Of a DNA stretch of 22,140 bases, positions 6,014 through 16,340 are shown one piece after another. Position 1 is the first letter of the stretch. Each line of letters opens with the position of its first letter. Origin of the DNA: Candidatus Poribacteria bacterium. GTDB taxonomy: Bacteria; Poribacteria; DTPJ01; WJIO01. A program made the position numbers and the translations under genes. Location: positions 1 through 22,140 of the forward strand of contig WJIO01000451.1 of NCBI GenBank assembly GCA_014730235.1, read 5' to 3'. The notes below the pieces were generated by a model. That model was not told the origin of the DNA, ran no database searches, and worked only from the letters and a program-made list of their open reading frames with translations.

Positions 6014-6826
6014 TTATTTAATTTTTTCCTTCTCCAGACGTTCCCGGACTTCCTGGAACATAGGTTCAGCAAATTCTGTATTCCATGTTCTTTTTTCAAA
6101 AGAACGGGCTTTCACGGTTTCAAGAAATCCTTCGAATTCCTTGTAATATGAACCATAAATATGAAAGCTGTCGGTAATATCTACATATCTCCCTATCTTG
6201 ATTTCCTTATCCAATCTTTCACTGATCTTCTGGGCTATTAAACGCTGAAGATCGGTTATGGCAAATATATTCATAAAAGCAGCTTTATAACCATCTCTGG
6301 ATCGCCAGTGTACGTTCATGTTTAGAGACAATTGATCTTCTTCATTCATTATTCTGCACCATACGCGCTGAAGACATGGAGGATCATAAGCTCCGGGATC
6401 CAGATTTACGTTCCATGTTATGGCTTGAGCTCTGCGAGAATATCCAACCCGGGATAATTTTTCCACTATAAAATCTATCTGGTTGGTTTCAACACCTTCA
6501 GAGGGATATCTGAATAATCTTTGATGGTAAGTATATTCCCATTTACCCTCTTCAGGTTTTATCCAGTGGTCGTGGATACCTTCTATCACTTCCTGGCGAT
6601 ATACCTCCAGGTCTTCCAAGCCTCCGGGAAAAGCCCTGTGAATTCGTGGTTCAGACATAGGATCCAGAATTTCCATAATCATGGTGCAGTCTTTGCTTGG
6701 TGGATCTCCCTCTTTGTCATATTCGGTTTTTATCTTAACACCCTTTTCCCAGGTTGCTATTACAGCTTTTTCCCATGTTTCGGGAATATTTTTACCTCTG
6801 GCAACCAATATCGGTATATTCGACAT
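6014..6826 (-). CDS. Thymidylate synthase family protein (ThyA-like, archaeal-type divergent form)
   Basis: This 270-residue protein is close in size to E. coli ThyA (264). Active-site elements align with the classical enzyme: YSRRAQAITW (Arg131/Arg132 for phosphate), the nucleophile in DPPCLQRVW (Cys151), RSRDGYKAAFMN (Arg175, Ser176, Asp178, Asn186) and DSFHIYGSY (His222, Tyr224). Asn186 falls at the position of E. coli Asn177, which selects dUMP; an Asp there marks dCMP hydroxymethylases. The reaction would therefore be dUMP plus methylene-tetrahydrofolate to dTMP and dihydrofolate. The N-terminal half lacks the usual ELLWFL and WG-W segments and looks like archaeal-type relatives. The gene follows the ceramidase-like gene by 11 bp, with GGGG overlapping that gene's TAG as ribosome site. 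An alternative would be a modified-pyrimidine enzyme of the same fold. Confidence 0.85.
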   Translation of the reverse strand: MSNIPILVARGKNIPETWEKAVIATWEKGVKIKTEYDKEGDPPSKDCTMIMEILDPMSEPRIHRAFPGGLEDLEVYRQEVIEGIHDHWIKPEEGKWEYTYHQRLFRYPSEGVETNQIDFIVEKLSRVGYSRRAQAITWNVNLDPGAYDPPCLQRVWCRIMNEEDQLSLNMNVHWRSRDGYKAAFMNIFAITDLQRLIAQKISERLDKEIKIGRYVDITDSFHIYGSYYKEFEGFLETVKARSFEKRTWNTEFAEPMFQEVRERLEKEKIK

Positions 6827-6837
6827 GAATCTTACCC

Positions 6838-8136
6838 CTAATTACTCAGCCTTTGCATAAGTTTTAAAGAAGTCTTTATAATCTTGTTAGCCACGTTTTG
6901 ATCTACTGGATAGATACCATAAAGCATATATGCCGAATGAGTCTCATAACCACCTTCCTGAAAGGCTTTTTGTGTTGGCATATAACCTATACAGCCATTG
7001 GTATAACCAGTAACAAATGTATGATTAAAAGGTGAATCTTTTTTGATGCTAAGTCCTATATCAACAAACACCTCACCGGGAATACCGACTATGCCAATAT
7101 CTCCCAGCTTGATAACCTGGACTTCCACAGGAACTTTTGCTGCAAGCTTGACTTTTTTCACCATTGTAAGAGCATCCCGGGCCCATGTTAGGGTTATTTC
7201 TCTTTCCATGTCATGCTCTGTTTGATTGATTTCCTGTTTACGTCTATCTATAATAGCTTTAAGTTCTTCTTTTGATGGCAGTTGCCCTGAATTCAATTTC
7301 ACGATTTCTTTTGTCGTTTTTATTTCCACATCCGGTGATGTTTGTATAGCTTCGGAAACTTTCACTACTTCAGCACCCAGAACTTTACCCAGACTGGCGG
7401 CATCCTCAAAAGTACCTCTCCGGGCAGGATTTAAATCCCCGGTCATACCGTTGAAAAACATGGCAATGGAATTTTCACCATTTGCATTTTCAACAAAATC
7501 CATCGCATAACCGGGATAATCTCTTGATATAAGATAATTATCTCCACCCATAACCACAGGATGACATGCATAATTTACCATAGTGCATATATTTTTATCC
7601 TGTGTATCCTGTATTTTTATTATTCCCACCTGGTAATCAATAGCACCGGCAGGATTTACGCCAAGTATAACTCTATCATCCTGCCTCTGGCGTCTGTTGA
7701 CATTGATTTCAACATGACCTATGCCGGCACCAAGCTGAGCGTCTACCATATTACGATTGGCAATAGAAACAGCACCAGCTATCTTTTTTTCAAGTATGGA
7801 TACCCACTGCCTGTCCAGTTTACCAAAGCCTCGCAGGGGTGAAACCTGAGGACCAGAATGGGTATGGGTAGTGCTTATAAATACATTTTCGACATCAATG
7901 TCTGTCATGTTCTTGACTTTATTGCGGATAGATGAAACAGAACTTTCGTCAAGATTTAAAAGATCACAACTCACAAGGCATATTTTTATTTGCCCATCGT
8001 AAAATACAACGGCTTTGGCATATAAGTCGTCATGAATTCCCTCTGAAGGTTTTACTCTGTTACCAAACCCTGTCATATTTATTCCCGCATAGGGTGTTAT
8101 ATTAACCGCTGCCGTTCCTACCTTAAGTTTTGTCAT
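6838..8136 (-). CDS. Neutral/alkaline non-lysosomal ceramidase N-terminal-domain family hydrolase
   Basis: This 432-residue protein corresponds to the catalytic N-terminal domain of the neutral ceramidase family. Visible motifs are VGTAAVNITPYAG near the N-terminus, the zinc-binding STTHTHSGPQ (residues 88-97), YACHPVVMG (further metal ligand) and FNGMTGDLNPAR. GYTNGCIGYMPT and EGGYETHSA lie near the C-terminus. Known family members cut the amide bond of ceramide, but many bacterial proteins of this single-domain length lack the C-terminal immunoglobulin-like domain and have no demonstrated substrate. No signal peptide is seen, so it is probably cytoplasmic, which argues against bulk lipid hydrolysis outside the cell. 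It is preceded by a fair promoter and co-transcribed with the thymidylate synthase gene. Confidence 0.88.
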   Translation of the reverse strand: MTKLKVGTAAVNITPYAGINMTGFGNRVKPSEGIHDDLYAKAVVFYDGQIKICLVSCDLLNLDESSVSSIRNKVKNMTDIDVENVFISTTHTHSGPQVSPLRGFGKLDRQWVSILEKKIAGAVSIANRNMVDAQLGAGIGHVEINVNRRQRQDDRVILGVNPAGAIDYQVGIIKIQDTQDKNICTMVNYACHPVVMGGDNYLISRDYPGYAMDFVENANGENSIAMFFNGMTGDLNPARRGTFEDAASLGKVLGAEVVKVSEAIQTSPDVEIKTTKEIVKLNSGQLPSKEELKAIIDRRKQEINQTEHDMEREITLTWARDALTMVKKVKLAAKVPVEVQVIKLGDIGIVGIPGEVFVDIGLSIKKDSPFNHTFVTGYTNGCIGYMPTQKAFQEGGYETHSAYMLYGIYPVDQNVANKIIKTSLKLMQRLSN

Positions 8137-14372: not shown

Positions 14373-14412
14373 GGCTATGCAATACATATATGATTGAAAG
14401 GAAAAATTAAAT

Positions 14413-16161
14413 ATGAACGAAAAGGAAAACTCTATACGCATTATCCGATTTAACAATCCCGAAAGGGTTACAGGTGGTTATCCTGGACATGGCATAGGAT
14501 ATCGGGGATGCAATCATGCCGGATATACTGAGGGTGGGGATCATCTGTCTGTGGGATCGTCATGGTATGATATATGGAACACCAAGTGGCATAAATCCCA
14601 TGAAGGTGTTATGTCTTTTCCTGTGAAATTTCCCCTGGCTGATCTGCCAACAGCACTTAAAAGCTATCAATGGCCTGATCCTGATGATGAGCGAATCTGC
14701 AAACAAATTTATCAACAGGCCGAAGGATGGAATCCTGAAACCGCTTTCCTGGTAGGTTCACACCGGGATACATTGTGGGAAAAGAGCTACATGCTGGTGG
14801 GTATGGAAGATTTGATGTGCTTTTTCCAGACCGAACCGGAAGCCGTAAGGGAACTCCTTCATCGCATTATGGATTTTCAACTGGGCATTGCAAAGCATTA
14901 TCTCAACGCAGGGGTTGAAGTTGTTGGTATGAGCGACGATCTGGGAACACAGCACGGGCTTCTACTATCACCGAAGATTATCAGGGAATTTTTTATACCC
15001 GAATATAAGAGACTTTTTAAACTGTATAAACAAAACGATGTTATGGTAAATTTTCATAGCTGCGGTCACATTATTCCGGTATTGGATGTTTTCATGGAGC
15101 TTGGTGTGGATATACTCAATCCCGTCCAGGCTACAGCCAATGATCTGGACGAGGTAAGGAGAATAACTCAAGGACATATGGCTTTACAGGGTGCTGTAAG
15201 CTCTGCGGTTATAATGAAAGGACCAAAAGAAGCTATACGTCAAGAGGTGGCTAAAAGAATATGGCAGCTTGGTCGGAACGGCGGTTATTTCTGCGCCCCT
15301 GATCAGGGCATGCCCTGGCCTGAAGACCATATCAGATATTATCGTGAAGCTGTCCAGGAATACGGGGAGTATCCTGTTAAGCAGCCTGATGATTCAAAAG
15401 CTCTATCCCAGGAAAGGTTTTCAAAATATGCCGCCAATTATGTCACAAGCAAAGCCCACGCAGAGGGTGATGAACTGGACAGGTTAGTGGAAATAACTCA
15501 ACCTAAACATGATTGGTTAGTTCTGGATGTAGCCACCGGCGGCGGTCATACAGCTTTAAAATTTGCCCCTTATGTGAAGCATGTAACAGCTACGGATATT
15601 ACACCTGCTATGCTGGAAACTGCAAAGAATTTTATATCTCAAAAGGGAATTAAGAATGTGAATTTCAGGTTAGCCGATGCTGAAAATCTGCCTTTTGATA
15701 ATGATATATTCAACCTGGTAACATGTCGTATTGCACCGCATCATTTCCCCGATTGTCCCAAATTTATAAGAGAATGTGCCAGGGTTTTGAAAAAGGATGG
15801 TATACTTTTAATCCAGGATCACCTTTTACCAGAAGATGAAGAGTGCGCCCGATACATAGACAAATTCAATAAAATCAGAGATCCAAGCCATAACATGGCC
15901 TATTCTGAATCCCAGTGGGTGAGTATGTTCCAGAACGCCGGTTTGTCTGTCTTGCATATAGAAGAAATCACAAAACAACACGAATTTTTATCCTGGGTTA
16001 AAAGGCAGGATGTCGGTGAAGATGTTATTGATGAATTGATTAAAATGGTAAAAAATGCCCCACCCTTATTTATGGAATGGACATCCCCAGAAAATTTCGG
16101 CACTCCTGAAGCTACCTTTATTGACCATCACATCATTATTTCCGGTAGAAAGGAAAAATAA
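14413..16161 (+). CDS. Fusion: uroporphyrinogen-decarboxylase-like domain + class I SAM methyltransferase
   Basis: This 582-residue protein has two domains in one uninterrupted frame. Residues about 20-322 form a URO-D-superfamily barrel of the type seen in corrinoid-dependent methyltransferases (MtaA/CmuA-like) and other proteins of unknown role. The likely zinc ligands are His215 and Cys217 (NFHSCGHI) and Cys294 (GYFCAPDQGMPWPE). Residues about 335-582 are a class I SAM-dependent methyltransferase of the UbiE/YcgJ type: FSKYAANYVTSKAHAEG, motif I VLDVATGGGHT (370-380), acidic TATDITPAM, ADAENLPF, and HHF with ECARVLKKDGIL. The linker near 322-335 has no Met or ribosome site that would suggest a missed boundary. 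No cobalamin-binding domain is present. A methyl-transfer or demethylation role is inference; the substrate is unknown. UDP-galactopyranose mutase lies downstream. Confidence 0.88.
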   Translation: MNEKENSIRIIRFNNPERVTGGYPGHGIGYRGCNHAGYTEGGDHLSVGSSWYDIWNTKWHKSHEGVMSFPVKFPLADLPTALKSYQWPDPDDERICKQIYQQAEGWNPETAFLVGSHRDTLWEKSYMLVGMEDLMCFFQTEPEAVRELLHRIMDFQLGIAKHYLNAGVEVVGMSDDLGTQHGLLLSPKIIREFFIPEYKRLFKLYKQNDVMVNFHSCGHIIPVLDVFMELGVDILNPVQATANDLDEVRRITQGHMALQGAVSSAVIMKGPKEAIRQEVAKRIWQLGRNGGYFCAPDQGMPWPEDHIRYYREAVQEYGEYPVKQPDDSKALSQERFSKYAANYVTSKAHAEGDELDRLVEITQPKHDWLVLDVATGGGHTALKFAPYVKHVTATDITPAMLETAKNFISQKGIKNVNFRLADAENLPFDNDIFNLVTCRIAPHHFPDCPKFIRECARVLKKDGILLIQDHLLPEDEECARYIDKFNKIRDPSHNMAYSESQWVSMFQNAGLSVLHIEEITKQHEFLSWVKRQDVGEDVIDELIKMVKNAPPLFMEWTSPENFGTPEATFIDHHIIISGRKEK

Positions 16162-16163
16162 AT

Positions 16164-16340
16164 ATGCAACATCCTGAATCCGGCGATGTTTTTCGAGAAT
16201 ATATATGGTATAAAGAGAATGGAGACGCGGGTGGATCTTTAAGAATCGGTGGAAATAAACGTCATATTCATCCCGATAGAGGTTGGAACCATAATTATAT
16301 AATATTTCTGATTCGATATATCGGGGGAAACAGTGGATAA
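16164..16340 (+). CDS. Possible 58-residue ORF between the fusion gene and glf
   Basis: ATG 16164 follows the fusion gene's stop by 2 bp, with AGGAAAA a few bases upstream. The ORF ends at TAA 16338-16340, overlapping the GTG start of the mutase gene by 8 bp, so it would fill the gap exactly and couple translation. The predicted peptide begins MQHPESGDVFREYIWYKENG, is rich in Gly, His and aromatic residues, and has no recognised domain or membrane helix. It may be a real small protein, a remnant of a larger gene, or simply translated leader for the mutase. Confidence 0.35.
   Translation: MQHPESGDVFREYIWYKENGDAGGSLRIGGNKRHIHPDRGWNHNYIIFLIRYIGGNSG

Follow-up and report, generated by a model that had tools for sequence, protein, structure and literature searches.

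The window, by which we mean the whole stretch of 22,140 nucleotides that was analysed, is contig 404 of a 5.53-Mb MAG of Candidatus Poribacteria, a draft in 451 contigs that is 92% complete. It carries a single reading frame of 582 codons (582 aa), open throughout from ATG to TAA, in which a URO-D-like barrel is followed by a class I SAM methyltransferase (Table 1). Directly 3' of this gene is a short orphan frame (16164-16340, + strand; MQHPESGDVFREYIWYKENGD...) that extends up to the start of a UDP-galactopyranose mutase gene. It has no Pfam match, occurs only once in the genome, and could represent the beginning of a disrupted gene. A second URO-D-family gene is present on the same contig (19301-20383, + strand), adjoining genes for a Gfo/Idh/MocA oxidoreductase and a cupin. 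The minus strand encodes a 270-aa protein (6014-6826) with a weak but significant partial match to thymidylate synthase (PF00303, E 4e-11), not of the usual full-length form, and a bacterial neutral/alkaline ceramidase-like protein (6838-8136; PF04734, E 9e-25).

Table 1. Features of the fused gene, with positions in the window
Feature	Position	Strand	Basis
Fused ORF, URO-D-like barrel and class I SAM methyltransferase	14413..16161	+	ORF, Pfam, codon score
AAAGGA, Shine-Dalgarno-like, 10 bases 5' of the ATG	14397..14402	+	read in the sequence
UroD-superfamily barrel, about residues 1-322, N-terminally short by comparison with most paralogues	14413..15378	+	Pfam PF01208, paralogue alignment
H215-S216-C217, the HxC pair of MtaA-type zinc sites	15055..15063	+	paralogue alignment, 4ay7
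C294, the "distal Cys" of the earlier note, off the ligand column	15292..15294	+	alignment with paralogues and 4ay7
Q298, aligned with the third MtaA zinc ligand	15304..15306	+	alignment
Junction, residues 323-325, linker of at most a few residues	15379..15387	+	barrel paralogue ends at about 322-325; stand-alone methyltransferase starts at about 323-326
Class I SAM methyltransferase, residues 326-582, YcgJ/BH2331 type	15388..16158	+	Pfam, structure-database search, alignment, tree, predicted structure
SAM motif I, VLDVATGGGH (370-379)	15520..15549	+	sequence
D395, acidic, end of strand 2	15595..15597	+	conserved in relatives

An earlier note on this DNA had proposed that one frame joins the two domains, and this is confirmed. 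When the window was shuffled 50 times at the mononucleotide level, no open frame exceeded 189 aa, against 582 aa for the fused gene. Pfam places URO-D (PF01208) at residues 126-317 with E 2e-23, and Methyltransf_31/11/25 at residues 370-509 with E 3e-23 to 9e-23. A codon-usage score was derived from eight other genes in the window. In 50-codon windows along the fused gene it favours frame 1 every time, including 301-350 and 331-380, and the coding signal crosses the junction with neither a dip nor a change of frame. There is thus no sign of the frameshift or stop near codons 322-335 that the note had named as a finding that would refute it; the frame is continuous in the sequence, and the unbroken frame-1 signal rules such a lesion out. 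No in-frame ATG, GTG or TTG occurs between codons 300 and 359, so that an intact SAM half is not made separately from a standard start, and separate expression from an internal start is ruled out.

The barrel half scores 83.4 bits against PF01208, for which the gathering score is 23.9, but the match covers only profile positions 151-346. The N-terminal part is roughly 50 residues short by comparison with most paralogues; paralogue L011 is similarly short. Hence of the claim that both domains are complete, the part that concerns the barrel can be accepted only with a reservation, while the SAM half does align with stand-alone homologues to the last residues. There are about 60 further URO-D-type matches elsewhere in the MAG, the best of these paralogues being 26-35% identical to the barrel, and in 144 other genomes no relative reached an E value of 1e-36. 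Features of the barrel conserved in the paralogues are DDLGTQ (175-180), HSCG (215-218) and a C-terminal GG/P motif. The predicted structure of this half, made from a shallow alignment, has pLDDT mostly below 60. The large expansion of the URO-D family was seen at L141, L142 and L144: one member is directly beside a corrinoid protein gene (L142, 677-2411), and that at L144 is clustered with genes that, from reading them, we take to be sugar-isomerase-like and RraA-like.

With regard to function, the HemE uroporphyrinogen decarboxylases have an N-terminal RQAGR signature, and no RxAGR motif is present anywhere in the fused protein, which scores 29.2 bits against the HemE family (TIGR01464, cut-off 302.95). 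The MtaA/MtbA-type methylcobamide:CoM methyltransferases and CmuA resemble it in barrel family, in the HxCG motif and in the overall C-terminal half. However it falls far under the cut-off of the MtaA/CmuA family (TIGR01463, 61.6 of 235.4 bits). Among solved structures, the top match of a profile of the paralogues is methylcobalamin:CoM methyltransferase (4ay7, E 8e-17), and CdmB is also matched (E 2e-7). The note had proposed the HSC at 215-217 and a distal cysteine as zinc ligands. H215 and C217 are indeed in place, but C294 is four residues before the MtaA ligand column and is not common to the paralogues. In a profile alignment the cysteine of LAPGCG in 4ay7 falls on Q298 (CAPDQG), where many paralogues have histidine. 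The third ligand is thus Gln and not the distal Cys of the H-x-C plus Cys set of TIGR01463, and the zinc site is incomplete relative to MtaA. This leaves methyl transfer possible, as CdmB, also a UroD-type methyltransferase, works without zinc (PMC13222342).

No B12-binding domain is matched by Pfam in the fused protein, in agreement with the note, which had drawn a contrast with CmuA. It is correct that a SAM domain is found where CmuA has its fused corrinoid-binding domain, but the contrast is weaker than it was made to appear, because many UroD-type methyltransferases have their corrinoid on a separate protein, CdmB and CdmC being an example (PMC13222342). The genome encodes four B12-binding_2 proteins and one RACo-type reactivator, with corrinoid proteins on contigs 110 and 202. 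On contig 202 a URO-D gene comes immediately after the gene for a 209-aa corrinoid protein, in an apparent operon. None of the B12-binding_2 matches is on the contig of the fused gene. With corrinoid proteins encoded elsewhere in the genome, and their use in trans being common, the lack of a cobalamin module is unremarkable. The UroD methyltransferases I of the CdmB/MtoB/VdmB type, with a UroD barrel and the corrinoid protein in trans (PMC13222342), provide a parallel in this respect, although the sequence relation is weak, CdmB being matched only by way of the paralogue profile, and there is no cdm-like operon here.

It is possible, though in our judgement unlikely, that the barrel has some other activity of the UroD superfamily, such as a decarboxylase-like or lyase-like one, the fusion then being a two-step modification enzyme with no corrinoid involved. 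The low score against the MtaA/CmuA family and the absence of the third zinc ligand would fit this, as would the location of most URO-D-type paralogues on contigs without any of the four corrinoid genes. However the HSxG and DDxGxQ motifs are common to the barrel and the paralogues, one of which is in the apparent operon with a corrinoid protein. The match to HemE is poorer still, and the zinc-free CdmB (PMC13222342) indicates that in some UroD-type methyltransferases the metal is dispensable.

The SAM half is of the YcgJ/BH2331 type, most of the domain aligning with the solved structures (E 5e-46 to 1vl5 and 3e-44 to 1xxl), and the YcgJ/BH2331 members examined are all stand-alone proteins. 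We know of no characterisation of the function of YcgJ or BH2331. Motif I, D395 and the TCRIAxHHF motif are conserved in relatives, and we take D395 to be the expected contact to the SAM ribose, by the convention for class I methyltransferases. This is the only half that is confidently modelled, with pLDDT mostly above 90. CpaM, the corrinoid protein-associated methyltransferase (NF043040), is also a class I SAM methyltransferase, with a corrinoid link by name, but the fused protein is not a member (45.6 bits, cut-off 180).

There is no close paralogue of the SAM half in its own genome. Its nearest relatives, among the best 80 of 439 loci, are stand-alone proteins, mostly from Anaerolineae/Chloroflexota MAGs, with 49-55% identity; the stand-alone copy in other Poribacteria families is about 41% identical. 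In a quick maximum-likelihood tree the SAM half falls among 11 rows of which 8 are Chloroflexota (SH-aLRT 98), and the Poribacteria form a separate clade (SH-aLRT 98). As it groups with the Chloroflexota and apart from the Poribacteria copies, the SAM half was likely acquired laterally from a Chloroflexota-like source, this being the indication of a single quick tree.

The stand-alone relatives align with the SAM half from first to last residues, and their start coincides with the junction, where the peptide is EYPVKQPDDSKALSQERF. On one side the barrel ends as its paralogues do (EYGEYPVK, compared with KEFGKYPIKLPQ in paralogue L017), and on the other MSSDPRSLSQERF aligns from the first residues with QPDDSKALSQERF of the stand-alone Anaerolineae proteins. 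Thus a natural C-terminus is joined in frame to a natural N-terminus, an outcome that chance chimeras rarely give and that favours a real fusion. The junction is also precisely the place where stop and start codons would be expected if adjacent URO-D and SAM methyltransferase genes had been merged by loss of a short stretch in an assembly or sequencing error. For a draft MAG in 451 contigs, with one example on one contig, this has to be considered, and over the second half of the gene GC does drop, from about 0.45 to 0.39. Nevertheless such a deletion would have to be in frame and to trim only the stop, spacer and start, and the codon signal is continuous across the gene. The contig is moreover consistent with its genome: the RuvB encoded in the window is single-copy in the genome, 76% identical to the RuvB of the single genome from the same order and no more than 60% to those of the rest of the phylum. 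From this pattern the contig belongs to its Poribacteria genome, which rules out a contaminant contig, and we regard an assembly error as rather improbable.

The fusion is so far a single example in one genome. The window's own genome excepted, no second case was found in 386 genomes, nor in eight members of the phylum that were searched more deeply. No URO-D fusion is among the best 80 of 439 confirmed loci when one-per-species genomes were searched with an alignment of the SAM half, and no place in plasmids covers 80% of the query. The whole fused protein found no match in genome contigs or viral contigs, and the URO-D alignments none in viral contigs. An apparent second fusion in the same genome, a "1007-aa frame" on contig 445, proved to be a read-through of separate genes. 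In the same-order genome there are other genes beyond yebC, and the fused gene is absent from that place. Titles and abstracts of the literature gave no described example under a UroD and SAM-methyltransferase fusion, CpaM, or Poribacteria with URO-D.

The note had held that homologues always encoded as two separate adjacent genes would speak against its reading. Every relative examined is indeed separate, but no close one adjoins a URO-D gene, the only relative with a URO-D gene nearby, in the flanking sequence examined, being the distant L113 (31% identity). Without a second fusion or a close relative beside a URO-D gene, there is no independent genomic link between the two activities. The failure to find the fusion elsewhere in the order and phylum, and the orphan frame just downstream, could also be accommodated if a recent natural deletion had joined two neighbours neutrally, with no coupling and with one or both halves still working or decaying. 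However both halves have kept their motifs and the full coding signal, and we think this improbable. The note had speculated that the protein could link the demethylation of one substrate to the methylation of another, or methylate or reactivate a partner of its own. It is very improbable that the halves form such a coupled shuttle on one polypeptide. In it the barrel would demethylate a compound through a corrinoid protein, while the SAM domain would methylate that compound, a linked one, or the corrinoid partner.

We put at about one half the probability that this is a genuine in-frame fusion, private to one lineage of Poribacteria, that tethers two otherwise ordinary enzymes; what each half catalyses, and whether joining them brings a benefit, is what we infer. 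In this genuine fusion the barrel would most likely work like the methyltransferase component of corrinoid systems, passing methyl groups between its substrate and the corrinoid of a separate protein. The YcgJ-type half, probably obtained laterally from the Chloroflexota-like source, would methylate a small molecule, and the fusion would keep two steps of one pathway co-expressed and close together. Against this account, the gene is known from one draft MAG and there is no conservation to show that selection keeps the fusion. The third zinc ligand is missing from the barrel, which is also the poorly modelled half, and the contig has no B12-binding_2 match.

As one case from a draft genome, the fusion is for now a modest lead. 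If the halves were coupled, methyl groups would be exchanged between the corrinoid and SAM pools by a new route. For one of the dozens of UroD-superfamily proteins in this lineage, the fusion points to a candidate second step, which gives a pathway link that can be tested.
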